A DNA stretch of 64,000 nt from Terebella lapidaria (taxonomy: Eukaryota; Annelida; Polychaeta; Terebellida; Terebellidae): NCBI GenBank assembly GCA_949152475.1, contig OX424569.1, positions 29,371,950-29,435,949 on the forward strand, written 5' to 3'. Below are positions 11,601-58,796 of the stretch, piece by piece. Position 1 is the first letter of the stretch. Each line of letters begins with the position of its first letter. The notes beneath the pieces were generated by a model that saw only the letters and a list, made by a program, of their open reading frames with translations, made no database searches and was not told the origin of the DNA. A program made the position numbers and the translations under genes.

Positions 11601-14600
11601 TATCCTACGTAATGCTTCCCCGAACCCCCCCCCCCCCCGGCCTGCTTCTCTTGTTAAAATTTGAACGCCACATCAAAATCTCATTCTGCGAATCTAAAGC
11701 TTCTCGAAACGTTTGTATCAACAGTGCGACTAGTTCGGGAGAGATTGGATGAATAGAGCATGCCCCAAAATATGACAAATTTCAGCAATTTCCTGACCTT
11801 CCTAGGTTCAATGCACCTCAGATTATCTGTCATGGACACATCTGGGGAATATTATGAATATTTTAGAAGACGAAACGCGAGACGACGATCACTCAAACGA
11901 TCACTTTTTCAAAGGAAAAGAATGATGAGTGATCTATGTTTGTGCATGTGAGGCTAATGAGTAAAAAAAATAACTCACATAATCGGGAACTTCATCGCGA
12001 CTTCTGAAAAGTTGTTTCTGAATTTATGCGCATTTTTTCTTCAGAACATAGGCATCGATATTTGATGAGAACATATTCGATGGTGTGACAAGTTAATCGT
12101 ATCTAACAGTATGAAAGATTCTGCAGAATGAAAATGTCCAATATTGTGTATCTGATTGCAACCATGAGAAAATTAGGCGCGCCCCAGCACTTTTATTTTC
12201 TTACATTAGCTTGCGAAGGTTGATTGACAAGTAACAAAGTCCCCCTAAGGGCATCATACCTGATTCCATGTCTGGCTTTCCTTTTAGTTAGTAATGTCAG
12301 AAGAGTGATCTTCTGTGACACGTCAGATTAAAGCAGGAAGAAATTGCCATAGATTGCAGGTGTGGAATCTACGTATAAGGGAAAGTGTTTTCTAAAAAGC
12401 GTGAAATAGAAAGAAAGCGTGGAATGGCTCTTTGTACACGTATTAGATAGCACAATTCACAGGGAAAATGTCATATGAGGTTGGTTGTTAGGGTGGTGAT
12501 TGTGCTGAAGAAATCTAAATTGGAAAACATCTTTAATTCCTCTTCAAATGAGTATGGAAAATGACGAATCTCAGCGATTTCCTGGCCTTCTATTAGCTTT
12601 TAAAAACAAGAACATGTCCAAATTGTACTGCAGAAAAATATTCAAGCGAATATTGACAGTGACCATCATTCTGGCTGATCTCCCAGAAATGAGGCATGAG
12701 TTGTCCATGTTGTGAATATGTATCAAACTGATCCATCACTGGCGCATTGAGGGTCGGTTTTTGATTTCCCAATACAATGTTTTTATAATTTGATGCAATT
12801 TGTGGCCGAATGAGATAATGCAGGTATCATCCATGGAGCCCTGATAATCTTGTGTTTTGCAATGGTGATGGTTTTCATGGGAGCATTGATATTTATTATA
12901 TTGTTTAACACATTCACAAATTTGTCACATGCCTCTTCAGGACCTGATGCACCTAGTGAATTTTCCCAATTTCTTTTAATCTAAATCACACCGTGTTTTC
13001 CTAATTGCGCGTCTCTTTCTATGTTCAAATCTATTTTTCTATGTTCAAATGTTTACACGGTTCTGAATGTTTTTGGGAATAATTCACGAACAAAATACAG
13101 GAAAATGGTCGGATATATCGTGAGCTAATATTGCAGAATGCAATGCCTGTTTGTATGGCGCCCCGTTCGTGCCACAAAAAAGAGAATTTATTTTGTTTCT
13201 AACTCATACGTATGAGTTACTAAGTCATATGTATGAAATAAAAAGTCATACGTATGAAATAAAAAGTCATATGTATGAGATAAAAAGTCATATGTATGAG
13301 ATACTAAGTCATACGTATGAGATACTAAGTCATACGTAGGAGATACTAAGTCATACGTATGAGATACTACGTATGACATAGTATCTCCTACATATGACTT
13401 AGTATCTCATATGTATGACTTTTTATCTCATACGTATGACTTACTATCTCCTATGTATGTCATAGTATCTCATACGTATGACTTAGTATTTCATACGTAT
13501 GTGTTAGTATCTCCTACGTATGACTTGTTATCTCATACGTATGTGTTAGTATCTCCTACGTATGACTTTTTATTTCATACGTATGAGATAAATAACAACT
13601 TCCCTTTTTGGTGGCACGAACGGGGCGCCATATGTTTGTGTTATGTCATATATAACATAAATATTGTCAATCAGCGTTGCTGTGCTATGAGTAATGCGCA
13701 TAGGCTTCGTTATTGTAGGAATAAAGCCATCTGCGAACATTGAGTCAAGTAACTGTGAGGTTTGTTCATGGTTTCTCAGCTTTAAAAATCGGAATTTTGA
13801 TCTGTACCAATGATTACGTTTTTATAGACGTAGAATCAATACCAAGTATTAAGTATTCCGAGCGAACAAAACAGGGTCCGTTTTATAGTTGCGCAGTTTC
13901 GTAAATATGTCATAAAATCGTTGGACAAACAAAACATTAATGTTGTTTGGAATGCATCAAAGTTTTCAAAAATCCTGATCGTCCTTGCTCGTTTGTATGT
14001 TAGGTTTACAAACCTCCTGAACATCAAAATATCGTCAATGTTCAGCATTCCAGCTGTTCTTGTCATAAATAGACGCATAATATATGTATATAGTTATGGG
14101 TATTATCTACCTATTTCATTGCCGGTGCTTTGGGGAATAACTGCAAAGTCCATGGCGAATTTGGAAGATAACACATTAGAAAAGAGAAGCATGAATGTGT
14201 TTTTTTTTTTATAAATATTCGGGAGATAACACAAAAGATATACAAAAATGTGTTCGTTCTTTTCATGAATCTGATGGGCAGATTAGTCGTAATGGTAATG
14301 TAATTATGTACCTGATATATCATTCAACGTGATCCAGCTGTTTAAAAGAGACACAAAGTGTAGAATAATGCCAGTCTTTGTGGATTTGACACCTAAAAAT
14401 GTTTTACTTTTAACAACACCAGAAGGTCAGTTCCAACTGTTGATTCAATGGGCGTGATAGATTGTTTTCCAATGCTTTCAGAAACTCGAGGCAGATAATC
14501 ACAGATAATGACCATGTTTGTCTTTTTATCCATCTGTACATACAATGTGAGTGAGTCAGTGACGGCGCGAATGTGCCATCAAGGTTGCAGAATCATCTTA

Positions 14601-15800
14601 CGCTGTTTGGTGCAAGAATGTAAAACTTTCTAGTGAAACATCTGAGAAAATTCATATCAAAACATTATATTTGCAGACATATGGCTTACTTATAATGAAT
14701 GCATTGTTCACATATATAGTGTATTATGCGAAAGTAAGAATCAATCTATTACCATCAATACAGCCAAATTTCGATGCAAGTTATTCAACAATAGTTTCAT
14801 ATGAACAATTGAATATAAAAAAAACACTATTTGAATAAAAGGCTAACTTTGTGTTTCAGGTGTGGATTGATGTTTGACTTATGACGGCCCCTTCGTGTTC
14901 TAGAACAGCAATGATTATTGAAGTCATATGTAAGTGAGAAGAGTTTGATAATCTCAATGCTACGTCTTTTGTGCATTCATATATCTATCCCACTCAAAAT
15001 TGGGTCAGCTTTTTATCGTAGTATCTTGAGATCTACATTTGAAATTTGATATCTCATATATACTCATAAAGGCATTAAACTGGGTTGTACATTGATTTTC
15101 TCGGATAACAATGTGGCGTCTAGAATCGTGACAGATTGGACGGAATATGACAAATTCCAGCAATTTCCTGACCTTCTCACTTTCAATGTAGTTCAAGTTA
15201 TCTATCACAAGCACATACAGGAAATATTGTGACTATCTTAGAGGGAGACACTCAGACGATCGTTCAAAATTTGTCAAAGAAAGAGAAGTGATGGATAGTC
15301 TACGGGCGTGCGTGTGTGGTTGATGTGCGAGATTAACTTATATAAATGAGAACTACATTCAAACAGTGATTGGTCTCTGAATAATTCTGCGTTTCGTCGT
15401 CAGAAAATAGGCATCGATATTGATGGATATAATATTTTGCAAAACACTCTTGCATTCGATTGTACCCAGGGAAGATCAAGGATATGCACAAGCAATATTC
15501 CTGACAAGAACATATATCCGTAAGAAGAAGAGACTCTCCGTACATAATGAAGCACGCTCTAATACTTTGCCTTTACGTCGGTTGCCAATCCAAATTGTAG
15601 TTCGAGGAAAGTTTGATTGGCAAGTAACACAGTCCTTCTAAGCGCACCGTACGTGATTCCACGTGTGTCTGCCCTTTCAATGAGTAATGTCAGCCGAGTG
15701 ATCCTCAGTGATACGTCAGATTAAAGCAGTAAGACACCTCCATAGGTTGCATGTGTGGAATTCTGGGCCATGTTGTGCTGCTGTTTTAGTGAGTTAATTA
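8690..15800 (+). repeat. Array of diverged tandem repeats (about 2-3 kb units)
   Basis: Several blocks recur in the same order. Block 1 ('ttcaggagtgg.ttggtgtt...tatgac') is at 9,308, 11,357 and 14,862. Block 2 ('ttcagcaatttcc.gaccttc') is at 9,758, 11,780 and 15,158. Block 3 ('gattgacaagtaacaaagtcc') is at 10,268, 12,222 and 15,612. Block 4 ('gataatgacca') is at 8,793, 11,060 and 14,503. Spacing is about 2.05 kb between the first two full units and about 3.4 kb to the third. The third spacing is partly explained by the foldback element at 13,154-13,632. The copies are well diverged, and open frames in them are not shared. No repeat-encoded protein is evident. Confidence 0.75.
13154..13632. 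mobile_element. Foldback-like element A, TATGGCGCC family, with 21-bp palindromic modules
   Basis: The terminal inverted repeats begin TATGGCGCCCCGTTCGTGCC and are mirrored at 13,610-13,632. Perfect 6-bp direct repeats TGTTTG flank the element at 13,148-13,153 and 13,633-13,638. The interior is almost entirely a tandem array of about 18-19 units with period 21 bp. Each unit has a core CATACGTATG (variants CATATGTATG, CATACGTAGG) and an 11-bp spacer. The spacer reads AGATACTAAGT in the left arm and its reverse complement in the right arm, so the whole element can fold on itself near 13,370. There is no transposase frame. Long open frames with an HTYE/HTYD heptad are a by-product of a 21-bp unit that is divisible by three. 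This is a non-autonomous DNA element. Confidence 0.88.
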
Positions 15801-19300: not shown

Positions 19301-22300
19301 CCAGCTGAGATCCCCTGCCTGGCCCCGGGCCGTATCATCTGTCCCCGTACACAGCGCTGCATCAAGAAGGAGTACGTGTGTGACGGAGTGAACGACTGCT
19401 ACAACAGCGTACAGGGACACGACGAGGAAATGTGTGGTAAGCTCTGCACGTTTTCATTTCACCCATGTGCGAATGTCGTATATGAATGGGAGTACAAAGC
19501 TGTACTGTACAACTTTTTAATTTCTAAAACTGAATGGAGTGATATTGTCACAGTGCGATTGTGAAATCAGTTCATAAATTATAATTTCTTAAATTATATG
19601 TACTGCACAGAATTGATGCAAAAATGATGGAACTCGATTTTTTTTTTATATAACTTATTGAAAATACATCTCAGTAGTATTGAATAATGATATTGCAATT
19701 TTAATAAATGATTGCATCATGACTGTAATATTTATTGTGTAATTTTCTTTTTGTCCCAGACGAGACATGTGACAGTAGTTTTCGGTGTTCAGATGGCAAA
19801 TGTTTGCATTATGATTTGCCCTCCCTCAGCTGTGATTTCATCTCTGACTGTTCGGACCGGGAAGACGAGATCAACTGTGGTAATGGCATGATCTATGTTT
19901 AAAGATATTCGCTAGAAATAGTGAGCAAGACAATATTTATATATTTACTGATTTATACAGTTGTATATTTATACTACTATTTGTTCGGCCGGGATATATG
20001 TGATAATTTTCTTCTAAAAGAATGGAATTCGATATATGTAATCGAATGAATAAACATTTTGTTACTGAAAATTTAATTGCTTCTTGAGGCTTAATTTATA
20101 TTTCAAAAGTTAGTCATTATACGTTTCAACTTGTCTTCATCATAAACGTAAGCTATTATATTGGCATCTAATCAATTTCTCTTCTGATAACTGAAACAGA
20201 TTTTACATCTTTCTCAAAAGAATTCCCGGATTGCACGGAAGACGCACCTTACAGATGTCATAATGGCCAGTGTATTCCACAGCAACAAGTCTGTGACACG
20301 AATGTGGACTGTTATGATATGTCTGACGAGAAAAACTGTGGTGGGTTCATTATGATTTTGGAGTCAATATCAATCCAATGACCAGGGTATTGTTACTATA
20401 CAGTTCTTGATACAAAATAAAAAAAGTGTATATAATTCGTATTATACATTTATTGACCTTGTCTGGGTATAAACATATCTGAACCTGTCTAACTTGTATA
20501 ATTATCACTAACAGTTGAGTACCAGTGTGGCCCTGACCAGTACAAGTGTCCAGGCAGCGGTCAGTGTCTGTCCAAGGCCCGGGTCTGTGACTTCAGGATA
20601 GACTGTCTGGGCGGAGCAGATGAGGCAGACTGTTGTAGGTATTCAGTGTACTAGTATATCATGATATGTCATATAGTAAATATTAAATTGTTGCTTTTTT
20701 TCAAAGATATAATAATGTTGTTTCATGCCAGTTGAAATTCCATCAATTTACCATTCTGCTTGTTTAGTTTCCAGTAATATATGCATCATACACGGTGTGT
20801 GGTGCCATCGTTTATGTTCCTGTATGTATCCTACCAAATGTATCATTCCCAAAGGTATACATGACTCGATTTGAAGTCCACATGTATAGCAATGAATTTA
20901 TTACAGTACATGAGGAATGCAGCGAGGAACAGTTCCAGTGTAAAAGTGGACAATGTATACCGAAGGATCGATTCTGTATATATGATGATACTAGTGACGT
21001 CATGGGCTGTATCGACCAATCACATTTACTGAATTGCAGTAAGCGCTGATGAAGTCCCCCATTCATAACTGTTCCATTCCAATTCAAGCAAGCATTATGT
21101 ATGGACACTACAGAATAAAACTAATTACGACAGTATTCAACCATTAAATAAGTTTCAATAACTTTATTAAACTGTTTACCAATCGCGATCCATCATTTTA
21201 CTTGACTGTCCGTTATTTATGAACCACATGATTGTGTAATTCAATCTTTACCATTTTAGTACATACTATTATTATTTTTTTCGTTCTTCAGAGGCATTCC
21301 AGTGTCCGGAAGGTTATTTCAAGTGCAGAAATAGTTATTGCATTAGTGAAAGTGCAGTCTGTGACGAGAAGGCGGACTGTCTAGTAACCTACACGGACAT
21401 GACCATCTGTAATACCCGTAAGATCAGTGGACGCAACTCTCACAAATTGTTTGAACTAAGATAGTTGAAACACATGTAGATATCTAATTTTGCAATTATG
21501 AGTTTATACCTTCGAGTATCGGTGAGTATGATAGTGTGATTGGTTCGTAGGGTTATACTGGAAAAAAATTGTTAAAGTATTTTAGAGTCAAGAGTGGGCT
21601 GATATTTAAAGTGCTTATGACGTTGAGAGAATACTTACGACCAAGACTTTTTGTTTTATACTTTCATATATTTTCATCACTGCAGCTTACGAATGTCCAT
21701 ACTCTCCTGGCGAAGATTTCATGCTTGACTTCGCTGCGCCCAAACAGCCCAAATGTATGTGCTATGATCTGGAGATGAACTGTGAGCGCCTGGGCCTGAG
21801 GGAAATACCCGACATGAAACATGAGCCGATGAATAAACTGTATGTCACGTCTGATTAGTCACTAGAGAATAATTACTGAAACTATGGACTTTAACCAACA
21901 TGTTGGCTAACAATCTTCGTAGTGGAAAAAATTATGGGTTGCACAGGTGGCTTCGAATACTTTGTTCCTATCAAAAATGTATATTCCATCGACAACCATT
22001 CAAATATTTTATTAAATCGACAATATACACATGTGGTGTAATTTTCCAGGAGATTTGGTGGCAATTTCCTGAACTATTCACTTTCCCGCGACATGTTTGA
22101 ACCTTACAGCAAATATCTATATCTGTGAGTACGAAACGTATATACGGAGCCCCTAAGGTGACATTTCAAAAATATTTATTGGTTCGTGGGCACGAATTAG
22201 CAATCGTCATTTTGTGGGCACGAATTGCTATTTCGTGCGCATTAATTAGTATTTTGTGCCGACGATTCAATGAATATTTTCGTATGTCACCTCAGGGGCT

Positions 22301-25300
22301 CTGTATATATCTATATTCATCGTGATCATCAACAGATTTCATTTGCTGTCACATATTTGAAGTGTTCCAAAAAATACGAAGTCATTCATCGATTTCAGAG
22401 ACATAAGCAACAACAGTATATCATACCTCGGGCCTGGTTACTTCAGCACGTTATGGCGCTTGTTGACATTGTGAGTTGGAAAATATAAATCCAAAATATT
22501 TAGCTCGCTATTATAGGCCTACCTTGGCGTTATACATCTACCAAATAACGTTTATATGCCAGCGTTAGGACTTTTATCAAATACATATTGTCATGCAATG
22601 TGATCCATTTTTGTGAGGAAATAGTGGCAATGATAATAAAATTTTCAGAAATTTAGCGGACAACAAACTGACGGAGATTGAGAATGGTACATTTGTTGGC
22701 TTGAGCGGACTGCAAACTCTGTATGTATCGCTCAATGTCAGAATTGAATTTTTTCATTGTAATGATGAGGCAATAAATTATTGTCATAATGACCAGTTTT
22801 TCTCATAATTGTTAACAGATGCATACTACATGTGTATACCACAATACTGGCATAACTTTCTGATGGTATTGTATGGTCGTGTAATGTAGATCCATTGTTT
22901 TGTTTTATAGCTATCTGCACGGGAATGAAATTCGCGATCTTTATCCGTTTTCTTTTCTTGGACTCTCGCAGTTGACCGTATTGTGAGTATTTCTTGTCAT
23001 GAACTGTTACGACTTGCATTTCCGATACTTCATAAAGAGAAATCATTATATAAATACTGCAAGGTAACCATATATCAGTGTTATCATATTTACGATTGCA
23101 AACTTGCAGGGATCTGAGCCATCAGAGGTTGAGAGCACTACCTATTAATGTGTTCAACGGACTACGAAGTATCCGAAATATGTAAGCATCAAAATATTAC
23201 AAGCCGTGATCCAATTTATATTTTGATAAATGCACGACAAGAGTAGGTATGATGACTGTTAACTAATTAATAAATTCGCATCTTATGTGTTTGCAGAATT
23301 CTGTCTCACAACCCAATAAAAATTGTACATGACGGTGCGTTCAGCGGTCTTCCAAAACTAATGGTTTTGTGAGTATCTTTACGCCCTATGTTATTCAAGA
23401 TTCACAAGGCATAGTAGGACCTACCCTTGTTTTGAAAGTGACACATATTTGTGGTATACATGAATGACATAGAACTGAAAATTTTAAAAAATGGAAAACT
23501 ATTTCATATAACTAATATATTAGAGAATTTGACGCAGTTTTCATTCATTTGATCTGTTTTGTTTAGAGATCTATCAAATTGTGAAATTAAAAACATCGGG
23601 GACAACGCTTTTAACGGATTGCCCTCTCTTCAAAAACTGTGAGTAATTTGAATCAGGTGTTTCAATCAAATTTTATTTCTATATTAGAGGAATGTGAAAA
23701 TAATTATGTACTTGATTATATTTATATGTATATGCTCATATAATTCGACGCTGATATTTTAATGATTTTCCTGTGATTCTTTGCGTGAAGTCACACAGAC
23801 GAGTTCCGGTTCTGTTGTCTCGCGAGAACGGTCAAGGAATGCTTGCCCAAGCCTGACGAGTTTTCCTCTTGCGAAGATCTCATGTCCAACACAGTGCTTA
23901 GGATATGTATCTGGGTGCTTGGACTTATCTCGTTCGTGGGGAATACCCTTGTCATATACTGGCGCATGAAGGACACCCGAGATAGCAGGGTAATCGAACG
24001 ATAAAATTATCAACCGTAACATTGCTGCGAATTAAGGAAAACAATCATTTACCATAATCTTATATATTTAGCTAATATATTACAAATTGTGGGATGAATA
24101 TTCTGCAGAAATCATAATAAGGAATGATCAGTATTACACTTTTTTGTTCAAATAAATTAACGATAATATTATTTGAAACCATTTTGCAATTCTGACTTCA
24201 TTTAATTGTTCCACTATAATTCCATTCCAGGTACATTCGTTCCTGATCACGAATCTTGCCATAGGCGACCTTCTGATGGGCGTTTATCTGTTGATCATCG
24301 CATCCGTGGACTTGCGGTATCGCGGGATATATATCGTCTATGACTTGTTTTGGCGTCAAAGCGGCCTCTGTAAATTCGCCGGCTTTCTATCAACCTACTC
24401 CAGCGAGTTAAGCGTCATGACCCTCACTGTGATCACCATCGATCGATTTATATCGATTATATTCCCGTTTAGAGTCAAGCGCATGAGCATGCGCGATGCT
24501 AGGATCGTCATGTTCACTGTATGGGGATTAGTCTTCGCACTTGCGGCGGTTCCTCTTGCGAATATCTCGTACTTTCGCAACTTCTACGGACGTTCTGGAG
24601 TATGTCTTGCCTTGCATATCACGCCGGAAAAACCCAGTGGATGGCAGTATTCTGTCTTTGTGTTCTTGGCGCTTAATCTCCTATCCTTTCTGATGATTCT
24701 CTTCTCGTATTTGTGGATGTTTGTAATCGCTCGACGAACGCGGGCCGCCGCACGTTCACCGCAAATGCGCACGGATCGCGCTATGGCACGCCGGATGACA
24801 CTTATAGTGCTCACTGATTTCTTCTGCTGGATTCCAATCATCGGACTCGGGATCGCTTCGTTGTATGGCGCCAATATTCCGACACAGGTGAGGATATTAT
24901 AGCCGTATTTAAAATAATTCAGAATTCAGTAAACTCTTTTTACGAACATGGTAAAGTTTTTTATTCACTTCCATATAGTTTTTTTTTTTGCTTCTCCAAA
25001 ATATATCACCTAATAAATATTGATTGTGTGTTCTTGGTGAAAGATTTTATTGAATAATTTTACTGAATAACTACAAAGTATTATTGATTAATAATCAATA
25101 TGGACATCGTGTTTATGAGTAACACTATGGCGCCCCGTTCGTGCCACAAAAAAAGAGAAGTTATTTTTTTTTCTAACTCATACGTATGAGATAATATGTC
25201 ATACGTATGAGATAATAAGTCATATGTATGAGATACTAAGTCATACGTAGGAGATACTAACTCATACGTATGAGATACTAAGTCATACGTAGGAGATACT

Positions 25301-26677
25301 AACTCATACGTATGAGATACTAAGTCATACGTAGGAGATACTAACTCATACGTATGAAATACTTATCTCATACGTATGAAATACTTATCACATACGTAGG
25401 AGATACTATGTCATACGTAGGAGATACTGTATTAAGTCATACGTATGGAATACTAACACATACGTAGGAGATACTAAAATTTCCATATACCCGACACCGC
25501 CGTGGAAATAGAAGTAATATGTGTGTCCTCCATGTTTTCCATGTAACCTTCTTGCTTCTTTTATGATCTCCATGACAATTTCACATATCTATCTACTTAT
25601 AAAGAAATATCTCATACGTATAAGATAAGTATCTCATACGTATGTGTTAGTATCTCATACGTATGACATGTTATCTCATACGTATGACTTATAATCTCAT
25701 ACGTATGTGTTAATAATTCATACGTATGTGTTAGTATGTCATACGTATGTATTAACAACTCATACGTATGTGTTAACAACTCATACGTATGTGTTAATAA
25801 GTCATACGTATGACTTAGTATCTCATACGTATGACTTATTATCTCATACGTATGACTTATTATTTCATACGTATGAGATACTATCTCATACGTATGAGTT
25901 AGAAAAAAAAATAAACTCTCTTTTTTGTGGCACGAACGGGGCGCCATATAACACTAGTGATAACGGTAAAATAATTCAAAACATGGAACGCTTGACATAT
26001 ATACTGTTCTTTCATACTTGCAGGTCTTCGCCTGGATAGCAGTGTTTGTTCTGCCCCTGAACTCCGCTATAAACCCGATCCTGTACACGATCTCCACCGC
26101 GTCGTTCATGGGTCACGCTCGCCGCAAGGCCTTCAAGTTCCGCAAGTCCTTCATGAGCTCCTTCAACACGAATGATACGACTAAAACAACCATCGCCTCG
26201 GGGGCCGGGTCCTTCCGCTTTGTCGGTAAATAGCTTGACTTTTTATAACATTATTATTGTTTTTGACAGTATGGTTCATTTTCATTTCACAATTATATTA
26301 CTGCTTTTTATTTCCTCAATTTCCATGTGATATCCCTCACATAAAACATCCGATTGATACATTTCCGATTAAAAAACATCCACATTTTAATTTCTTTTGA
26401 AAATTGTGATTATTCCTTAATAATTTCCTGATTTGTTTATTTAGCAGACAGAGGTTCGCCTTGCAACGATTGGTCCCGCCCGATCTACAAGAAACCGAAA
26501 CGCCATAAGAATAAGGAATCTATGATCATGTACCCGGTGAATCGACCAATCACGAGGAAGAACGGCGGTTGCTATAGATACGAAGGTCACAGGAACCGCA
26601 ACGATTCGTCGACCTCCGCAGAATACACGAAAACGGATTTGTTCGGTTACGAATCGGACCCATCAATCGTGGAATAA
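16178..26677 (+). CDS. LDLa-LRR-7TM receptor (GRL101 / relaxin-receptor-like, LGR type C), 5' end not resolved
   Basis: I assembled 23 exons by splice site and phase: 16178-16348, 16658-16765, 17367-17483, 17883-17999, 18344-18442, 18804-18920, 19305-19436, 19760-19879, 20221-20340, 20515-20634, 20907-21038, 21292-21417, 21686-21839, 22050-22124, 22649-22720, 22911-22982, 23110-23181, 23297-23368, 23567-23638, 23791-23989, 24231-24887, 26024-26225 and 26448-26677. They give at least 1,117 residues in one open frame. LDLa modules span about residues 1-493, LRRNT about 494-544, LRRs to about 689, LRRCT plus 7TM to about 1,000, and a basic cytoplasmic tail the rest. LDLa exons are all phase 1-1 and LRR exons phase 2-2, as expected of module exons. 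A start codon and most of the signal peptide must lie in an unseen upstream exon; the first exon starts with a hydrophobic run. The architecture matches Lymnaea GRL101 and vertebrate RXFP1/2. The ligand is unknown. Confidence 0.9.
16658..16765 (+). CDS. Receptor exon: LDLa 2
   Basis: The acceptor is GTTGTAG and the donor G|GTGGGT. It has six cysteines with CPPWEFQC and CDTKVDC spacing, and an NGRDE acidic box. Confidence 0.85.
17367..17483 (+). CDS. Receptor exon: LDLa 3
   Basis: The acceptor is TTGGCAG and the donor C|GTAAGT. This is a canonical LDLa with CPPSHIKC and a DNSDE calcium box. Confidence 0.9.
17883..17999 (+). CDS. Receptor exon: LDLa 4
   Basis: The acceptor is TGTTATAG and the donor G|GTAGGG. 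This is a canonical six-cysteine LDLa with CDGTADC and a DGSDE calcium box. Confidence 0.9.
18344..18442 (+). CDS. Receptor exon: LDLa 5, cysteines missing
   Basis: The acceptor is TCTCCACAG and the donor T|GTAAGT. Aligned by the C2-C4 spacing of exon 3 (11 residues), the position of C3 is tyrosine. No C1 precedes C2 within the exon. An alternative in-frame phase-1 acceptor after 18,262 would add 27 residues including one cysteine nine residues before C2. The boundary is therefore uncertain. Confidence 0.75.
18804..18920 (+). CDS. Receptor exon: LDLa 6 with two extra cysteines
   Basis: The acceptor is TTTTATAG and the donor A|GTAAGT. The split codon across the intron completes the last cysteine of LDLa 5 (T+GC). 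The second half reads [11 protein letters not shown], giving eight cysteines instead of six, and the DxSDE box is altered. Confidence 0.85.
19305..19436 (+). CDS. Receptor exon: LDLa 7
   Basis: The acceptor is ACCCAG and the donor G|GTAAGC. It has six cysteines, CDGVNDC and an HDEE acidic box, with a slightly long C5-C6 loop. Confidence 0.88.
19760..19879 (+). CDS. Receptor exon: LDLa 8
   Basis: The acceptor is TTGTCCCAG and the donor G|GTAATG. It has six cysteines with CSDGKC, CDFISDC and a REDE box. Confidence 0.88.
20221..20340 (+). CDS. Receptor exon: LDLa 9 (start 20,200 or 20,221)
   Basis: The donor is G|GTGGGT. Two in-frame phase-1 acceptors are possible: CTGAAACAG (exon from 20,200) and CTCAAAAG (from 20,221). 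They differ by seven residues before the module. It has six cysteines, CDTNVDC and an MSDE box. Confidence 0.85.
20515..20634 (+). CDS. Receptor exon: LDLa 10
   Basis: The acceptor is CTAACAG and the donor T|GTAGGT. It has six cysteines, CDFRIDC and a GADE box. Confidence 0.88.
20907..21038 (+). CDS. Receptor exon: LDLa 11, divergent second half
   Basis: The acceptor is TTTATTACAG and the donor A|GTAAGC. The first half is canonical ([13 protein letters not shown]). The C4-C5 segment is lengthened and the C5-C6 loop lacks the SDE calcium box, so calcium-dependent folding of this module is doubtful. Confidence 0.85.
21292..21417 (+). CDS. Receptor exon: LDLa 12
   Basis: The acceptor is GTTCTTCAG and the donor C|GTAAGA. 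It has six cysteines ([17 protein letters not shown]), again with a weakened acidic box before the last cysteine. It directly precedes the LRRNT exon. Confidence 0.87.
21686..21839 (+). CDS. Receptor exon: linker + LRRNT
   Basis: The acceptor is CACTGCAG and the donor CT|GTATGT, phase 2. It carries the cysteine cluster [10 protein letters not shown] typical of an LRR N-cap, then GLREIPDM leading into the first repeat. Confidence 0.85.
22050..23638 (+). CDS. Receptor LRR exons (six consecutive repeats)
   Basis: The six exons are 22050-22124 (75 nt) and 22649-22720, 22911-22982, 23110-23181, 23297-23368 and 23567-23638 (72 nt each). All are phase 2 at both ends, and each encodes one 24-25-residue LRR of the form LxLxxNxIxxIxxxxFxGLxxLxxL. 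The first repeat is the most degenerate. The intron before the second LRR exon holds the short inverted-repeat element at 22,143-22,305. Confidence 0.9.
22143..22305. mobile_element. Foldback-like element D (163 bp) with CGTGGGCACG modules
   Basis: The terminal inverted repeats TACGGAGCCCCTAAGGTGAC and its mirror (GTCACCTCAGGGGCTCTGTA) enclose spaced copies of CGTGGGCACG-type cores. Three cores are 21 bp apart, with spacers AATTGCTATTT and AATTAGTATTT. No coding content is present. It lies in the intron between the first and second LRR exons of the receptor. The flanks are AT-rich, so a target duplication cannot be called with certainty (GTATAT/ATATAT match 5 of 6). Confidence 0.75.
23791..23989 (+). 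CDS. Receptor exon: LRRCT + TM1
   Basis: The acceptor is TGCGTGAAG and the donor AGG|GTAATC, phase 0. An FCC...C...FSSCEDLM cysteine cluster (LRR C-cap and hinge typical of LGR receptors) leads into TM1, which carries the conserved GN ([10 protein letters not shown]). Confidence 0.92.
24231..24887 (+). CDS. Receptor exon: TM2-TM6
   Basis: The acceptor is CATTCCAG and the donor ACAG|GTGAGG, phase 0 at both ends. It shows NLAIGD in TM2, GLCKF (TM3 cysteine), TIDRF in place of DRY, a basic third loop ([10 protein letters not shown]) and FCWIP (CWxP) in TM6. Confidence 0.97.
25126..25948. mobile_element. Foldback-like element B, TATGGCGCC family, in a receptor intron
   Basis: It has the same terminal repeats as the copy at 13,154. 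Perfect 6-bp duplications TAACAC flank it at 25,120-25,125 and 25,949-25,954. Each arm has about 14 units of period 21 bp with core CATACGTATG. In the left arm CATACGTATG and CATACGTAGG units alternate over 25,205-25,350, giving a 42-bp higher-order period. Unlike element A, the arms are separated by about 135 bp of unique sequence (25,471-25,605). It lies in the intron between the TM2-TM6 and TM7 exons and has no transposase. Confidence 0.9.
26024..26225 (+). CDS. Receptor exon: TM7 + start of tail
   Basis: The acceptor is CTTGCAG and the donor G|GTAAAT, phase 0-1. TM7 carries NPILY (the NPxxY motif). A basic, Ser/Thr-rich cytoplasmic segment follows. Confidence 0.95.
26448..26677 (+). CDS. 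Receptor last exon: cytoplasmic tail and stop
   Basis: The exon continues in phase from the TM7 exon and ends at TAA 26,675-26,677. The tail is rich in K/R and serine, with no recognised domain. The acceptor is a tandem TAGCAG, so the exon may start at 26,445 or 26,448. Confidence 0.85.
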
Positions 26678-30301: not shown

Positions 30302-33300
30302 GACTGAATTATATTTCCAACGTTGCTGTCAGTTGCATGTCCAGTCTCCTACATTCCGGTTGCAGTGACTTTTCACACCAAGCATAAACTTTGCAACCGA
30401 AGTTCTCGAATGAATTCTTACATTTTCAACAACAACAAAAAAGCATCAACCACATCATATCTTATCCAAACAATACAACATTACTGGATGGGAATCGCGA
30501 TGATATCATGCACAATTCACAGGAGGTATAATTATTGCCAACAATTACAATGTGTTCAATGTTATTCCCTGACTACGTTGTACATTTCCATGCACGTGCA
30601 CGAAACCTTGCACTAGCCGCGAGCCAATTTATATTATGACCAGTTGGCCAGCGCCTCGGGTGTTTTCGATGATGTGTGCTCTTTCCGGGAATGCGTGCGA
30701 TACTATGAGAGTATTCACATTTACCCATGTGATACTTCCAAGTCACGCAAAAAGCTCACGCAAATATAAAACTGCATGTCACATATGTTACATGTTTGAA
30801 CTTTCAGTTGAAAACTTTTTGTAGAAAGAGTATTATAGTTTTGAAACGTTAGGAAAGTAATATGTTTCCATTCGTCACCATATATAAGCTTTCCCTGAAC
30901 ACAACTGTGAATAACATAAATTACAGCACAAAAATGGCATACTTAGAATGATGAAAATTACGAAATTATACATACAACAGTTACCACAGTACCTGTTTTT
31001 TCCCCAAGAAAAGGATGAAGTATGAATTGGTACAAAGTTCACTGAGTTTTACAAGTTACATTATCACACCGTCCGAGTGTAGACATTACTGTAGCGTATC
31101 ATTTCGCCATTTGTCATATACATTGCATTTAGGTATTATATAGTTAGGTATGTAGTCACGTCTGTTATGTGTGTCGGTTTTGGGGATCATCTGCGGGCAA
31201 TTCATTTGTCATTTTTCACCATTTTATCGCATCATGCCACAATTAACTTTTAGAAAAACGACCATTGTAACGTATTTTTGCATAGAGAATGAACTGCTGG
31301 GTGGATCTATATAAAATAACAACCACTCACAGATCATCATCTCCGAACACAAATAAATTTAATTCGTGCAAATACCCCTAGATCTATGCTTTTTAACTTT
31401 GAAGTCAACTACAAAATTAACTTTGAAGTCAACTACAGCCAAACGTGCCCAGTTTCAGGGTACATATTGATCCAAAAGTAGGGTGCATTATGATATGTTT
31501 CTTTTTCCTCTCTTTCATCAACGAATGTTAAAAATATGTTCAACTGCATTGCAAAGGACACTGGAATATATTTGTAATATGATAACAGTTCCTTATCTGA
31601 TTGTTATCATCATACGATCGCAAACCTATTTTCAGTTAACCGATTTACAGCAGTTTTACAGTTAACCGAGTGGTATTCATCCGCAATTGTGGTGCTACGC
31701 CTTACGTGTGACGAGTCTGGTAATTTGAGGACTGTGAGTCCACAAAATCGCAACATCTGACCAAACACGAACACGTTATGATGTAAAACATAGCTGGTCC
31801 TCAGCTATTGAGTATTGTCATGACGATACATTTCACCTTTAGGTGAGAACTTTTTCTGTATGGTTTGTGCAGAAGTGTCACTCGAATAGAGCTTGGACTT
31901 GGTCATTTATTCTCTTCTTTTCTTCACCGAATTCAAGCAACTTTAATGTGAGTTGTATAATTTTATATTGCAAACCTGCCATCGAATTCGATTGAATAAT
32001 TGATTTGACAGTCATAATGGCGTTATTATGCATATTTCTCATAATCAGGTGAACATAATTATAAAAAAAAAGCGGCACGATCATACAATGTTAAAATTCA
32101 AGTCACAATATCTTTCCGTCCGCTATCTGTGAGCAGTTATTCAGACACTGGAATTATTGTTAGTTTCTTTTTCCAGAACCGTACAAGGTCAACCCACTGT
32201 GGTTCAAACCTTGTGTGTTAAAAACCTCATATAAATCGCCATATACAGGTATAATGGTGTGCGTGTTATGTTTCAATGTGTTATGATATATTCCCATATT
32301 TCGTTTGATTTCATCTAATGTCAATTAGTGAAATTGGCCAAAAATGACCCAATTCGTTGGTAGTTTTGAGGTAAAACACGCATAATTCCATACTGGGAAG
32401 AATATTTGAACCCAATTTCCTGTTTTCGGGTGCACGATGTCATAATGATGATTGTTTAACAGTAATGAAATCACCGAATGAATTTCAAATATTGTAGAGT
32501 TCGGCGACCCCACGATAAAGAGGTATACCCGGCCATTACTGGAGTGTCGCCGAATGTCTTATAAACCTGTCCGCACGTTCACGCTATAACCGTGGTGTGA
32601 CTACTAGGTAGCCACCACGTCATAACGCTACAGTGCTTTCCCCTGTCGGAGAGACCTCGTCCCCGAGGTCAGCTATATCCCACTGCCCAGTCACATCACA
32701 GCACTGAAGATCAAGGGCGCCGCAGCTACCCTATTATGTACACATACTTGGCTGCGATGTGAATCTCAGTGAGAGGCTGACCCCAGGAACGACGCCGAGA
32801 GAACCCAGTGTATTAAGTACGCGTATTTAATATTAAGTACACGTATTTAATATTAATTGTGTTGGTTTGTTGAATCGAATGCCCTTACACCAAAACCATC
32901 AACTTTTGATACCTAACTATTCTGATACGCGGAATTCTTGTAATAACAAGAATTCTTGTAATGGTATTTAATGTAATAACATGCGTTGATGATTGCTACC
33001 AATTACAAAATATCCACTGTTATATACTACCTACGACGTACATTTTCACGTAGGGAAAACGTTGCACTAGCCGCAAGCCAAAGTATGCAAATGAACAGCA
33101 GCTGACCAGCGGTTGTGTGTTTTTGACGAGACGTGCTGTTTCTGGGGAAGTGTGCGATATAATGATAGTATATTTCTATCCTCATTCACGCGAGCTTTTA
33201 CATTAATAATTAATAAACTACGGTTTGTACAGAAACATGAAAAATACCATCTGGTTTCTACGAGACAAGATAATAATATGAATCGCTACAAAGATTACAC

Positions 33301-33764: not shown

Positions 33765-33765
33765 G

Positions 33766-51900: not shown

Positions 51901-54900
51901 GGCGGACACGAATGTGCCCAAGTTCCGGAAAATGTCGTTTACTGTGACCATCTTATCGAACAGGTGAGCATTGTGGGATGTTTTTTATCAGGTGGAGCCT
52001 ATATATTTTCACTTTCACTTCCGGTCCCTTAGAAAAAAAATTAATACGAACGCCTTGCAATAATTCCTCTTCGAACGTCAAAAAATGTTTTAAAACAAGA
52101 ATATTTCGTCATACATTCCGTCTGAGTGTAAGAATACTACCACTTTCTTTTGTTTGATGTCGCATATTTTAAAAGACGACTGTGTAATACAGTATTTGTT
52201 AATCCCTTTATATCGAGTTGATCAAGTATGTATGTATGTATGTATGTATGTATGTATGTATGTATGTATGTATGTATGTATGTATGTATGTATGTATGTA
52301 TGTATGTATGTATGAGAATGATTAGATTATTTCTTGGTATACTTCAATTCGGTGCAGATTGGAACTTTGCAGATTTTCATCAGTATAATCAGAACAATAT
52401 GCATGATATGTATCCAAGTCCAATCCTAGCAAGTGAAATTGCACCGAAAATGTACACTGATGGTATTTACCAACCTAAGTAAATACTTCGTCGTTTCCTG
52501 TGCAGATTCCCCCGGTATCTGAGTGGGGACGGGTGTTTATCGTTGGTCCGATCATAGGCCGGGACCGGAGAGCAGGCTACATTATCCGTGTGCTCACCTC
52601 GCAGGTGACGGGTATAGGTACGTTCTATCATTGTCTAACATCTGTATATATACTGTCTTGTTTGATACCAGAAAAAAGCACACATCATCCATTGAATATA
52701 TGATTTTTAATCCATCTCATTTTCTCTCTGATCGCACAATCTTGATGGGATGTTTATACGAAACCTATATATAGTGACTTTACATGTATATCAAATGACG
52801 AACAGTAATATTCTACCATTAATACGACGGCGAATAGTGATACACCCAGTTTACCATTACGCTGAATCAATACATTGTTTGCGAAGATGCGTGCAAAGAG
52901 GAAAAATAAATCATAAACTCACAGCTAAATGGAAAATATCTTCCCGATGTACAGAGATCGCCAATGAGATGGAAGCCATCTTCGAGACCGTCACACGGGG
53001 TATGGGCGACTACTACCAATATATCGCCCCTGACTCACGTATGTTACTCAGAATCAAATGTACGGTACCGTGTTTAGTCGTACAGTACAACACAGGCTAT
53101 TTCCAAGCCACGGGCGCAGCGGAGACGGTACCAACAGACCCCTTCATGACGGTGAGGGGACAATAGTCTTTTCGTAAATTTTATCGTAATGTATTAGTAT
53201 TTTAATACCGGGGCCCAGATTTTTTCCCTCCTCTTTCACGCGCACATATAACAAACAGTTGTTCACCAGGCATATGCCAGGATTGTTCATTATAACAAAT
53301 CATATACGTATTTTAAAGAAATGAATGCGCATAAACTTTTGAAATCACCATGATTTAGTTGAACTCCTATGTTGTTGTTTTGTAGAAAAAAATGCAAAAT
53401 CACGGATGTCTTTGTAAAATTCAGATCATAGTTCCGGTTAATCATTTCACCAACTTCATGAGTTTTGGAACAGCCAGATATTGGTACAACAGCGCCACAG
53501 AACCGTTCGCTAACTTCCTAACGATTGTTGCTAAGACAGCGGAGTTAAGTGGAGTCAGGCTCAACAATGCACAGGTAAGAAGAACCGGTCGAATTATGAA
53601 GCGAACTTCCGGGTTTGCTCAGCATTTGATGTATAAAAAGGATATAGCCGAAATTTAGATGATGAACTTAAATACTCGAAATAGAGCTGAGTGGAAACTG
53701 AGTAGTCTACAACACTCAAATTGTTAGAACATCAACATTCGTCGGTTTGAGTGATATATTAGCGATTGCTCTGAGTACGACAGAGTCAGGATAGATTTAC
53801 TCGGTTAAAAGGAAGTTAAAAAGTTTTACCGAATTACAGAATGTCAACAAATCATATTCAACAAGTGAATACGTAAATCTAATTGTTCTTCTCACTCCCA
53901 GGTGACCCAATCTTGGACGCAGATGCAGGGTACTGGCTATTCTGTGACGTCGTTCGCAATACCAGCTGGCAACTTTACGCTCTACCACACGAACACAGCT
54001 GCCCGTTTCGTGGGCTATGTGTACGGTCATTCCCAACACGAACCTACGGCTTACGGATACCCAGTCGGATATGACAGTGAGTGGTCCTAGAAAAATATGC
54101 CACTCATTTTGGTCTTTGCATAAGTTTACAATGTACAATTTGTATGAAATTATATCCGTATACTTGGCATGTTTCACAAGACATCTGACCCGAACAGCTA
54201 TGAATTAAATAGCGTAGTGAAAACATACACTAGCTTGGCTGTACGCCAAAATAACAATTACCCCCCCCCCCCCCCCTACCACCTTCAGTCCAAGGCCCGC
54301 CGATCCCCGGGTACTGGTGGGACGAGTTCTTCACGGAAGCACCGACCACGGCAGCCACGTGTACCAACACGAGGGATATGCCGCCAGGTACGACCACCCC
54401 ATTGATTAACCCCAGTAAACATATCACCTTAGTAAATCGTCTGTGTTAGCCAGAGCATGCACCATGTCCAGAGCATGCACCATGTTGTAGCATTATTAGA
54501 CACTTTACTGCATGGACATAGTAGGGTATTTATCCGTAGCATGTGGCAGGCCATGCAGCTGCTCAAATAAATAGGCTTATTTAAAGCTGGAGTAACAGTT
54601 TATGAGGAGGGTACATCAGGGAATACATATACTAGTACTTTCCGACGCAGTTAGGCATTTGACCAGCTGGTTGCTTGTAATGAGGTCAATTATTGAAACT
54701 TAAATACGTTTGGGTTTGTTCACTTTTTTTCACCAATGTCGAATGCAAGTACACTTGTTTATATCTAAATACGTGTACATATTTGCCGCACGTATAGCGT
54801 CACTGCGAGGCCCAGACCAGATGTTCCAGGCGCGTTCCTTCCTCAAGTACCAAGCAGCGAGCGCCGACTGTTACTTCAAGTTCCAGCAGGTGCTGCAACT

Positions 54901-55559
54901 TAAAGCTGGAAATATGGAAGATCTCCTCAACCAGCTGATCTGCAGCAGAACGATCTGCCCAAACACGGAGTACGCCCAAGTCAACTCGCTCAGCATTGTG
55001 GCGTACAACCCAATGGAAAGTACCACGGTGAGTGTTGACTGAAATGAGTGCATGTGGGAATTTAATTATCAGATGTGAATGTGTTTAGTAACGTATTGTA
55101 AAAAGCTAATAGCTTTAGTAAGACCAGATAATCGAAGAATATGTATGGTAACATTTGAAGGGTCGGTGTGCTATATATCAATGTGCTACCAAGTCTATAC
55201 ACACCAGTCTCAAAGAAGTCTACAAACCTTTTTCCCAGCCACGTTTTCTTACAACTAGAAGATGCACTTTGAGAGGAGTTAGAAGCCACTTGGTGTGTGT
55301 GTCAATTATTCTCTATTGCATAAAATGACTTTCCTCTAATAACCAGGAGATGGTCAGCTTCGACGCAGACATCGAACTAATCACGTCAATAGACGAGTCT
55401 ATCGGAGACATACTCCGCTGCAAGCGAGCGATTATTGCCTTCCTGCAACAGCCTATTAACTGGAACATGCCTACACCCGTGATAAACTGCCCTGACGTCG
55501 ATCTCAACGACGTCATTCTCATAGCCGAACAGTTTAACTGCCCCGCCCCAACGAAATAA
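44966..55559 (+). CDS. Secreted IgGFc-binding-protein-like protein (FCGBP N-terminal domain), 13 exons
   Basis: The exons are 44966-44983, 45658-45685, 45915-45932, 47798-47988, 51240-51434, 51712-51963, 52506-52617, 52955-53151, 53425-53574, 53902-54076, 54289-54387, 54798-55027 and 55347-55559. All have GT-AG ends and matching phases, total 1,878 nt, 625 residues plus stop. The signal peptide [19 protein letters not shown] is encoded by the first three tiny exons, and an in-frame TAA lies 16 nt upstream of the ATG. The IgGFc_binding domain (about 80-445) shows FGGHEC (213-218), YCDHLIEQ (227-234), a WGRVFIVGP segment and PVNHFTNF. A short Thr/Pro-rich linker (about 455-478) leads to a C-terminal helical, cysteine-containing region (about 480-625) that I do not recognise. 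There are no VWD or EGF modules. FCGBP itself is a mucus glycoprotein; function here is unknown. Confidence 0.9.
48960..49045. repeat. AT microsatellite with 10-bp palindrome
   Basis: An A-run and (AT)n precede ATATCGTACG-CT-CGTACGATAT at 49,021-49,042, a perfect 10-bp inverted repeat with a 2-nt loop. Confidence 0.8.
49419..50925. mobile_element. Non-autonomous DNA transposon, GGTTACCGGAC termini
   Basis: Perfect 11-bp inverted termini GGTTACCGGAC (49,419-49,429) and GTCCGGTAACC (50,915-50,925) are flanked on both sides by TA, as for Tc1/mariner-type insertion. The left end can form a hairpin with the nearby GGTCCGATAACC. A GTCC microsatellite follows at about 49,475-49,505. The interior has two copies of a 454-bp unit (for example 'cgaaaaacgctcaa' at 49,648 and 50,102) and many 'gaccttga' phrases. 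No transposase frame was seen. It lies in the intron between exons 4 and 5 of the IgGFc-like gene. Confidence 0.8.
52224..52313. repeat. (TATG)n microsatellite
   Basis: An uninterrupted tetranucleotide array of about 22 units lies in the intron between exons 6 and 7 of the IgGFc-like gene. Confidence 0.97.
54261..54276 (+). promoter_or_regulatory. Poly-C tract in the acceptor region of IgGFc-like exon 11
   Basis: Sixteen uninterrupted C lie 12 bp before the CAG acceptor at 54,286-54,288 and make up most of the polypyrimidine tract of that intron. Confidence 0.6.
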
Positions 55560-55825
55560 GTCGAGACATTTCGCAATGCGGGAGAGGGATTGTCTGTAAA
55601 AAAAATTAGGTGCTTTTAGGGAAGATAAGAGAAGAGTAGAGATGCTGATGTGTTCGTTAAAATATTCAAAATATATGTTGTTCGTATTTTTTTCGTTTGA
55701 AGATGTGCTGTATATAGTGTCAATATACTGTCATGTTAAATATTTATACAAATGTCACGTGGTATTGTTAGTGTTTGTATTTGTCGATAGGGGGCTATAT
55801 TTGTCAAGGGGCTGGCTATTTACAT

Positions 55826-57394
55826 AGTGCAATGTTCTAGAAGCTGAAAGTTGTGCTCTTGCATGAAAAAAATCATAACGTACCAATTGGTGACTTATGA
55901 CTTATCTCCTTCCTGTGATAAAAAAAACATTGTCTTTTCTTTATAAAGAATGTCAGAAACCTGCGGTTTTGTTTGTGTTATTGTGTTATAGTGACAAATA
56001 ATTATCCAACACCACGAATAATTTTCAAACAATGTTTTTTAGTGTCATGAGACCTATCGTCGGACGCAGAATTAGAACCCTCAAAGTCGAAACTTGTTTG
56101 CGCAAGGTAACCTCCATGATAATTCCGACAACGTGGTGATTATGCCATTTATGACACAGTTATAAAATTATTTATAATAATGAAAATAACATCTGATTTC
56201 AATTTTTTTTCGTTAGCAAAAGACATACCATGATAGTATCAATTAATTTATACCTCGCGGCAAAAAGACTACAGATAAAATATAGATGTTTATTTTTCAA
56301 TCTACATGTAAGATATCAAATTTTACCTCAACATTCAGCAACAATTTATCAACAGTTAGGTTCATTCGATAACAAATGAAATGTGGTCAGTTAGCGTGAT
56401 TCATCAGTATTCAACAGAGAAAAAAAACTGTCATTGAATAATACATGAGATATGTCATTCAACAATAGTCATTTATATAATATCAAAATCAAATCCGTTT
56501 TTGATCAGGTCATATCTACTCATCGATTTGCACTTCAATTCGACGTTGACACGTAATTATTTTGACAATACAGTCAAACATTTGTAATTACAGTTCGCTT
56601 ATTATTTTTCATCACGATGACACGAACATATTCGTTACACATTCAAATATAGCCCAAACGAATACACTCAAACGTACAAATATATGCGAGAGAGAGCCAT
56701 TACTGGGGTGTGACAACCCATACAACTAGTACATCTGAACACCGTAGACATACAAATATTATTTCAAAATTACATCTCATTTGGCATGTTTGGTTAGAGT
56801 CAACAGATGAACAGACAATTGCACCCAAACACCCAAAGGACCAAGGATTTTGTATAAAGTACATGAAAAAAAAACAATATAGCACTGTTGTAGAAATTGG
56901 AAGTTGCGCTCTCGCGAGAAAAAAAAAATCATAATGTATCGTAACTCAAATCATAACTCAAAAACTCAAAAATATCATAACTCAATGTGGCTCATACAAG
57001 TATTCATGAATGCGATATTCTCGACTGTCCAAGAACCCAGGCCAAAAAAAAATGCTTTTCAAAGAACTTCAAGGACCTGAAAAATGCAAGTCTGTTCTCA
57101 AGAACTTTTCAAGGACTTCAAGAGCCTGTGCGATAATTGTGACTCTACTTAATGTGATAAAAACTATTGTCATTTCCAATTAAGAATATCAGATGCATCT
57201 CGTTTTGTTTTTGTTGCGTGTAAACTTATCAAATATTTTTTTTCAATTCCAATAGTATATTTTTCAAGTAGTGGCATTCAGTTCATGTGGTGTTCAGCAA
57301 AGGCTCATGCGCTGACAACCTCTGTGATAATTCTGTCAACATATACGTATTGAACCATGCCAGAAGATTTTGCAATGGTGATTAGGCCATTTAT
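55826..57394. repeat. Segmental duplication, first copy and start of second
   Basis: The block order is Y (about 55,826-55,990), Z (about 56,085-56,440), X (about 56,440-56,790), then Y again from about 56,879. The repeated Y phrases ('gttg.gctct.gc..ga' followed by A-run 'tcataa.gta') are about 1,053 bp apart. The second copy is interrupted at 57,394 by element C and resumes at 58,797. No coding content was recognised. Confidence 0.7.
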
Positions 57395-58796
57395 TACGGA
57401 AGAGGATTAGGACCAAGCAACTAAATTTTTTTTTCGATTTGTCGACTTACACGTGTATCTCGATAAATCGACTTACTATCTCGATAAATCGAGATATTAT
57501 TTCGATAAATCGAGTTATTATCTCGATGAATCGAGTTAATTATCTCGATAAATCATATATATATAAAGCATATATCATTCAACAACTATAGTCATTTATA
57601 TAATATCAAAATTCAATCCGTTCTTAATAAGGTAACATCTACTCATCGATTTGCAGTTCAATTCGACGTTGACACGAATTTATTCTGACAATACATTCAA
57701 ACATTAGTACTGCAGTTTCCTTGTTATTTTTCATCATGATTATACTAACATACTATTTTGTTTACACATTCAAACATAACCCGAGCAGCTCTCTCAAACT
57801 TGGAAATATAGACGAGAGAGCCGTTGTTAGTGCGACAACCCTTACACCCAGTACATTTCGACACCAGAGCTACAAATATTATTTTACATTTACATCTCAT
57901 AGGTTAAAGTCAAAACTGCATAGAACAAAAAAGGCACGGATGATTATTTATAGAAGTACACGAATAAAGCAACATCAAACCTTCACCGTTCACGTTCATA
58001 TGATAATCTCTTTTGATGCCAATACTACAAACACGCAGTGACAACAACAAACACCAGAAATCATTATGTGTGTATTTTTCGATAAACACACAAACTCGGA
58101 GATTTATCTGTTCATTTCTAATCCGTTGGGTAATTAAAAGTATATTATGAACCAGTGGAATGACAGTAATGTATTACAGAACACTGTTCCCGCAAATCAA
58201 ATAATAATTCGTCATCTAATCTTCATCTGGAATGCATAATATATGATGCAATAATGTCCGATGTTTATGAATATATGGCATTTCATTTATGTCTTATACT
58301 GTACCTTGTATGTAAAATATCACTAGCATCTTCCTAATACCATATTTAGTCACACCAGAAAACACCCATCAATACGGTAACATTGAAAGGAATACAGGTA
58401 TGTTTCACAATATCTGTAGACATTTTTTGATTGCACACGAAACGGCTTCTTCAATTGGATAGTTTGGTATTATTTCAGTGAAAATCACTGAAATAATACC
58501 AAACTATCCAATTGAAGAAGCCGTTCCAAATAACGTTACGAATATAGTGTAATGACTGTTAAACTCCATATAGTTTTCAATATGAGTAATCAGTATATAT
58601 TCTTTATCCTATCGTTTCCAAGGTAACCAATGAAATGGTATATGGTTTGCCTATATCACGGTCGATGTATATTCATTTTACTTGTACTTTAAATGTCTGA
58701 GCCATAAGTCGATTTATCGAGATACGTAAGTCGATTTATCGAGTCGACAAATAGAAAAAAAAAAATTGAGTTTGGTGGCCCTAATCCTCTTCAGTA
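57395..58796. mobile_element. Foldback-like element C, 1.4 kb, with CGATAAATCG modules
   Basis: The terminal inverted repeats are TACGGAAGAGGATTAGGACC at the left and the mirror of TACTGAAGAGGATTAGGGCC at the right, each followed by an A/T homopolymer and GTCGACT. Perfect 6-bp duplications ATTTAT flank it at 57,389-57,394 and 58,797-58,802. The related block at about 56,143-56,150 has a single ATTTAT in the same context (GCCATTTATGACAC), an apparent paralogous empty site. Inside the left end is a 21-bp array with core CGATAAATCG and spacers such as ACTTACTATCT (57,445-57,555). Two units lie in reverse orientation at the right end (58,700-58,745). The interior carries a sequence close to 59,530-60,199 and a 41-bp perfect hairpin. 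No transposase was seen. Confidence 0.88.
58441..58525. repeat. Perfect 41-bp inverted repeat with 3-nt loop
   Basis: The left arm 58,441-58,481 and right arm 58,485-58,525 are exact reverse complements, separated only by AAA. The hairpin begins where similarity to the 59,530-60,199 block ends. Confidence 0.95.

Follow-up and report, generated by a model that had tools for sequence, protein, structure and literature searches.

The stretch of the Terebella lapidaria genome considered here, 64,000 bp of contig OX424569.1 in assembly GCA_949152475.1 (positions 29,371,950 to 29,435,949 of the forward strand; hereafter the window), contains four elements, E1 to E4, with arrays of short tandem modules in which a mostly palindromic core alternates with a conserved spacer. 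They are described here as miniature inverted-repeat transposable elements (MITEs) of IS3EU type; no strand is assigned to the elements or to their target site duplications (TSDs). E1 (13154-13632) is 479 bp long and carries 19 modules with the core CATACGTATG in a single array (13195-13587). Its terminus, TATGGCGCCCCGTTCGTGCC, is identical at both sides, and the element is flanked by the 6-bp TSD TGTTTG (left copy 13148-13153, right copy 13633-13638), read in the sequence and checked by script. E2 (25126-25948), a MITE of the same family, is 823 bp long, and its 28 modules form two arrays (25173-25477 and 25608-25902) flanking a family-conserved middle (25476-25606); its TSD is TAACAC (25120-25125 and 25949-25954). 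E3 (57395-58796) is 1402 bp long and has the core CGATAAATCG, with five modules on the left (array 57456-57554) and two on the right (about 58709-58745), the remainder being other DNA; its TSD, ATTTAT, was read by eye (57389-57394 and 58797-58802). E4 (22143-22305) is only 163 bp long, with four modules of the CGTGGGCACG / CGTGCGCACG core type spaced by 28, 21 and 21 bp (by eye), and appears in Tandem Repeats Finder (TRF) as a weak array of 2.4 copies with a 76% match.

Three terminus types occur among the four elements, and both this and the coordinates agree with the first-pass annotation of the window. The same annotation described all four as filled with modules, which is true of E1 and E2, while E3 has seven modules in all and E4 four. 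The ends TAYGG..CCRTA are present at both sides of E1 and E2, and at the left ends only of E3 and E4, the right ends being one letter off (TACTG in E3 against TACGG, TACAG in E4); genome copies of the E3 and E4 termini mostly have TACGG among the matches listed. Terminal inverted repeats longer than 30 bp, a further criterion of IS3EU, were found in E2 (arms of 213 nt, 87% alike) and E1 (181 nt, 82%), arrays included. In a scan of the window for periods of 15-31 bp, period 21 alone flags E1, E2 and E3, E4 being too short for the scan, and the other matches belong to a GTAT microsatellite at 52.2 kb. Higher-order periods of 42 bp in E2 and 63 bp in E1 were reported by TRF. The interior of E3 contains a near-perfect 85-bp inverted repeat (58441-58525), parts of which are kept in other copies of the family, so the repeat belongs to the MITE. 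Another part of E3 (E3 positions 176-615 and 837-1037; window 57570-58009) recurs at 59533-60188 and 56450-56780, and is probably another dispersed repeat that was inserted in E3.

The whole assembly (762 Mb, 438 contigs) was searched with each terminal repeat, a check that the first-pass annotation had proposed; loci fetched from it bear L-numbers. The E1/E2 terminus was found at 466 forward and 461 reverse places (up to 2 mismatches), the E3 terminus at 187 and 163 and the E4 terminus at 430 and 436 (up to 1 mismatch each), against 0+0, 0+1 and 0+0 for the reversed controls. The E1-E4 families are high-copy mobile elements and not chance. At least 40 copies of E2 were scored, and its middle is 95-100% alike in 17 of 18 matched loci (84% over 109 bp in the other, L024). 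The flanks of E1/E2-family copies show that the terminal TA is part of the element on either side, with a direct repeat outside it; this amends the earlier account, and the 6-bp TSDs of E1, E2 and E3 also lie outside the TA. In the E1/E2 family the TSD is 6 bp and exact in 22 of 28 rows, 7 bp and exact in three, with one mismatch in two and two mismatches in one, the rows including two segmental copies (L014) and two of a repeat pair (L027). In the E3 family it is 6 bp and exact in 13 of 20 rows, 7 bp and exact in four, with one mismatch in two and absent in one; segmental copies in L042 and L044/L045 are counted here, and three extra pairings in L046 were dropped. L014 (C4:14700500-14710400) and L046 (C4:21707400-21713000) contain whole MITEs in segmental tandem copies, 3.2 kb apart in the former and about 1 and 2.2 kb apart in the latter. 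In all 29 E1/E2-family elements counted, which have 4-40 modules each, the distance from either end to the first core is 46-54 bp; in the E3 family it is mostly 53-66 bp (once 41 bp).

The published marks of IS3EU, as given in the accessible text of two studies, are a 6-bp TSD, TA..TA and specifically TAYGG..CCRTA ends, and an integrase-like DDE transposase (PMC10045372, PMC12730594). A 6-bp TSD flanks E1, E2 and E3 and not E4 itself, and integrase-like DDE partners were found for E3 (L029) and for the E4 terminus type (L061). Because of the TAYGG..CCRTA-type termini, the 6-bp (sometimes 7-bp) TSDs and the partner transposases of two of the three terminus types, E3 is almost certainly a member of IS3EU; E1 and E2, whose partner was not found, are very probably members as well, and E4, without a clear duplication, may be assigned to it with good confidence. 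Thus, the suggestion of the first-pass annotation that no named superfamily fits these elements was mistaken, and its term foldback is apt for their shape only, since TSDs of 6-7 bp differ from the 8-10 bp described for Tetris in the accessible part of PMC4079207; a foldback or Mutator assignment was rejected for this reason. Tc1/mariner or ISL2EU, with TA as the TSD, was ruled out by the 6-bp X of X-TAYGG..CCRTA-X, seen in copy after copy, and PIF/Harbinger (3-bp TWA TSD, DDE_Tnp_4) by the TSDs of 6-7 bp.

A protein search for relatives of the partner transposases gave 133 matches in the genome, and PF24764 also gave 133, against none in 14 control genomes. The E3 partner (L029 and L030), whose E3 termini are farther apart than those of any other pair among the matches listed, is 9,824 bp long and has the TSD GTTGGG and arrays at both ends. 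Its transposase matches Pfam rva_4 (E 2e-25) and also rve (7e-6, under the rve cut-off). A frame with a match to HECT ubiquitin ligases (L029:3363-3740, minus strand, E 1e-7) lies on the strand opposite to the transposase, so that both array-bearing ends point into genes. The window copy E3 resembles this element only in the ends and arrays, which fits cis-acting sites that were kept while the rest was lost. In fungal IS3EU an alpha-kinase gene lies opposite the transposase, according to the accessible text of PMC12730594; nothing relevant on HECT in DNA transposons was found among the literature matches listed. The E4 terminus recurs in four loci (L061, L071, L072 and L098), where E4-like cores lie next to the gene; a near variant of this terminus is present in L102. 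The L061 protein matches rva_4 with E 2e-25, and the L098 gene is enclosed by two E4 termini 12.5 kb apart, as judged from the positions of the ends only.

No transposase match was found in the E1-type loci L001-L028. One of them, L010, was considered as the autonomous E1/E2 partner and rejected, as its DDE_Tnp_4 gene sits in a separate transposon (about 693-5273) with its own ends, AGGGACCCCTAGCA.., that interrupts the array of an E1-type MITE (by eye); we take an opposite-strand frame of this nested transposon to be Myb/SANT-like. Of the 927 places of the E1/E2 terminus, the first 100 were available for inspection, so the partner may have been missed. In an alignment, the IS3EU-type transposases share an N-terminal helix-turn-helix (HTH)-like segment, a second HTH-like segment and an invariant basic linker, as well as D134, D193 and E234; the roles of these parts are putative, being read from the alignment. 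The N-terminal segment gave a weak match to Clr5, below the cut-off, in two of five proteins, and a search by sequence for solved-structure relatives of the L076 transposase found none.

Re-centred on its dyad, the module consists of 5+10+5 bp and a linker (0-3 bp). Since the spacer, too, is near-palindromic, the module as a whole is a near-palindrome of about 20 bp followed by a linker. In the larger clade of families the 10-bp core is family-specific and mostly near-palindromic, and TA stands about 10 bp from the dyad on either side; neighbouring modules therefore meet at TA-N-TA. The periods of the E1/E2 family are 21 (514), 22 (46) and 26 bp (19), while in the E3 family 22 bp (118) outnumbers 21 bp (74), and other families have 20-23 bp. 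The strict 21-bp period that had been proposed is consequently too narrow, and the related argument that two helical turns place every core on the same face of the helix holds only roughly, for periods of 20-23 bp. TA is found at the outer edge in 21 of 26 arms from 13 families (shuffle mean 4.75, maximum 12 in 2,000 shuffles), the modules having been centred by eye. Mean identity is 0.51 for the outer part (null 0.40) and 0.39 for the core (null 0.31), neither value being reached in any of 500 shuffles; cores that are alike above chance are as expected of related families. Among unselected middle modules, taken solely because both neighbours match, the core is more conserved than the spacer in E1/E2 (1.79 against 1.12 bits per base; 378 units, 120 distinct), in E3 (1.82-1.89 against 1.63-1.64; 15 and 33 units) and in the E4 kind (1.65 against 1.30; 60 units counted on both strands, which stand for fewer actual modules). 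Spacer positions T4 and A8 have frequencies of 0.98-1.00 in E1/E2, in the 21-bp units of E3 and in the E4 kind. Outside the spacer search, the excess of palindromy is significant (p<0.05) in 14 of 26 unit types, with a Fisher value of 2e-11; as the families are related, this and the shuffle values overstate independence.

The spacer alone retrieves modules with other cores. Three patterns of the form spacer-open core-spacer, built to exclude cores that begin exactly as those of E1 and E3 do, gave 432 (204+228), 657 (360+297) and 265 (146+119) matches, 1,354 altogether, against 0 for each reversed control. These matches are pairs of modules and not elements, and the new cores were read by eye from 300 of the 1,354, among the matches listed. 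There, the first search returned mostly E1 variants (CCTACGTATG), part of the whole set are variants of the E1 and E3 cores, and the other cores, mostly palindromic, were CGCCRTGGCG, CGTTRAAACG, the CGAAATTTTG kind, CGTACGTACG, CGCTCGAGTG and the GAGCGCTT kind. The changes that separate CGTACGTACG from the E1 core are symmetric in both half-sites, as would be expected of recognition by a dimer. Seven stretches were read from six places with new cores. TACGG ends adjoin the arrays in three families (L109/L110, L111 and L113), the first of which is flanked by GTTTAT on both sides; in L114 a TACGG sequence is present in an ambiguous relation to the array, and no terminus was seen in the pieces of L112 and L115 that were read. 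The conserved spacer with a swapped palindromic core, proposed by the first-pass annotation from the window, thus survived the genome-wide tests and extends to further families.

Such arrays also accompany transposase genes. An array of period 19-24 bp is present in 28 of the 30 best transposase loci (exceptions L059 and L073) when the whole stretch, about 1.5 kb on each side of the gene, is scanned. In the upstream part, TRF found only 2.0 copies for L059 and L063, no right period in L073 and no fitting row for L066, yet the array of the last is plain in the sequence. Among 30 further loci, more divergent or fragmentary and read over 1.2-1.55 kb upstream, 14 have an array (4/15 and 10/15), L089 with 2.0 copies being left out of the count. 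In a tree of 17 transposases, with a root that serves the drawing only and with flagged long branches, a split with 100/100 support separates 13 rows that mostly have the TA frame from a sister clade of four rows with 20-bp units lacking this frame, or with no array; L060 and L066/L067, among the 13, have the frame only in part.

We consider it likely that the four elements are non-autonomous IS3EU transposons whose arrays are cis-acting sites read by the cognate transposase, with the specificity diverging by changes of the core. It is also fairly likely, though slightly less so, that the core is bound by this transposase, and the palindromic tag of each family, set in a shared frame, is probably an address read by its own enzyme. 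Dimers of the cognate transposase would bind the core, most likely by the N-terminal HTH, a conserved part of the complex would use the TA-N-TA frame, and several bound modules at each end would build the end complex, in which the catalytic domain might cleave the TAYGG end, some 50-65 bp outward of the first core. The arrays may lengthen and shorten by slippage or unequal exchange and be homogenised within a family; growth by slippage, as already suggested in the first-pass annotation, fits the variation of 4-40 modules. If core and reader change together, a family could become independent of its relatives while retaining the frame. More tentatively, the ends may bear a two-part code, a clade-wide invariant TA-N-TA frame with an interchangeable palindromic core as the family address, which would allow many mutually independent systems in one genome, core and reader changing together.

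Several results weigh against this interpretation. Twelve of the 26 unit types fail the palindrome test on their own (L052, L060, L062, L064, L067, L068, L074, L080, L096, L099, L102b and L105), and the TA frame does not hold for the sister clade or for some of the further loci. No clear target duplication was found in the flanks of E4 (22143-22305). The autonomous partners with the same termini that had been anticipated exist for the E3 and E4 types, and for E1/E2 neither an exact E1 core nor a terminus within 4 substitutions was found in the stretches of 60 loci (L049-L108), of which 30 are 3.6-3.9 kb long and 30 cover only 1.2-1.55 kb upstream. Across 10 families, with cores set by eye, core distance correlates with the distance of the catalytic domain (0.74) more than with that of HTH1 or HTH2 (0.63 each); the partial correlation is 0.37 (p 0.018) for HTH1 given the catalytic domain and 0.59 for the catalytic domain given HTH1. 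The 11-bp core of L054 was entered in this set as 10 bp, and L059 and L074 are the least certain. Co-divergence of the core specifically with HTH1 was thus not established, the catalytic domain tracking the cores at least as well: cores diverge with their transposases, and the reader is not singled out. The earlier idea of sites for diverging DNA-binding domains is supported in part: it stands as far as the genome-wide pattern of spacer and core, and is fairly likely as to binding. In addition, homogenisation of the arrays alone could keep cores alike.

Homogenisation is also the basis of another explanation, that the arrays have no function and arose as by-products when an AT-rich palindrome underwent slippage or unequal exchange, each family having homogenised another unit. 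The variable number of modules, the higher-order periods of E2 and E1 and the strong similarity of neighbouring units would all follow from it; however, conservation within arrays is far higher at the core and TA positions than at those between them, and one frame surrounds many different cores, the first of which lies at a fixed distance from the end, making this account improbable. Somewhat less improbable, yet still unlikely, is that the arrays serve as promoters or operators, on which the transposase or a host factor would regulate the inward-transcribed genes through the core, any role in excision being secondary. In several loci, such as L061, a short distance separates the end of the array from the beginning of the transposase frame, both ends of L029 point into genes, and TNPA of CACTA elements not only binds subterminal repeats but also represses (PMC2613891, accessible text). 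Against this, gene-less MITEs retain arrays at both ends, with at least 4 modules and the fixed first-core distance in 29 of 29 elements of the E1/E2 family. Finally, the inverted arrays might act through DNA structure, if hairpins or cruciforms served as substrate when the elements excise or the arrays grow. The fold of one strand of E1 has an energy of -162.8 kcal/mol (100 shuffles, z -31.6) and the modules are mostly near-palindromic, but such folding is a property of any long inverted repeat, and the dyad is broken in common variants of the core, CCTACGTATG and CATACGTAGG for example. The core of the partner transposase is, moreover, of the integrase type, a class that acts on double-stranded DNA, and this explanation is very improbable.

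For the preferred reading, of arrays as sites recognised by the transposase, the best parallel in function is offered by the CACTA elements (En/Spm, Tam1, Tgm). Their subterminal repeats are short, family-specific and capable of forming palindromes, have GC-rich and AT-rich parts, differ between families and act as cis-determinants bound by an element-encoded protein (PMC2613891). The co-evolution of these repeats with their binding proteins was posed in the accessible text of the same paper as a question for future genomes. CACTA elements differ from those described here in an unrelated transposase, a 3-bp TSD and the lack of a common frame in which dyad cores recur at a fixed period. The Drosophila foldback elements FB, Galileo and Tetris likewise have long inverted repeats of tandem modules in variable number, whereas Tetris has units of about 220 bp and its TSDs of 8-10 bp were used to place it in Mutator (PMC4079207, in part). 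In Herves, a hAT element and so of a different superfamily, the transposase binds one short subterminal motif, and other motifs act in cooperation with it (PMC3143072, in part). The closest relatives, IS3EU/GingerRoot, are alike in the 6-bp TSD, the TAYGG..CCRTA ends and the integrase-like DDE transposase, but subterminal arrays with swapped cores are not mentioned in the accessible text of PMC10045372 and PMC12730594, where the term "tandem repeats" occurs 0 times in both. For Styx, a fungal relative of IS3EU, an insertion with a 32-bp tandem repeat at its flanks is described (PMC10853768, in part). No description of arrays like the present ones was found in the literature searches, which does not prove its absence. 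The superfamily itself is already described, and what is new here is the module, a family-specific dyad core in a shared frame.

These arrays bear on an open question, the way in which transposon families become separate systems without cross-mobilisation. Related integrase-like transposases form a natural series within this one genome, and many of them have their own core next to them, set in the common frame. Exchanging cores between arrays would allow specificity to be measured, and the DNA-binding domain might serve to predict the sites. The arrays are also a simple handle for the annotation of IS3EU.

The window has some other features. Two reading frames (24177-24902 and about 26025), which resemble exons of a G protein-coupled receptor gene, have E2 between them. 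At 32811-32856 there are 2.3 copies of TATTAAGTACACGTATTTAA, the same kind of 20-bp unit as in the array beside the transposases L075-L078, and no pair of TAYGG termini was found around it. In the segment 49645-50580 a 454-bp unit occurs about twice in tandem, with 90% matches.

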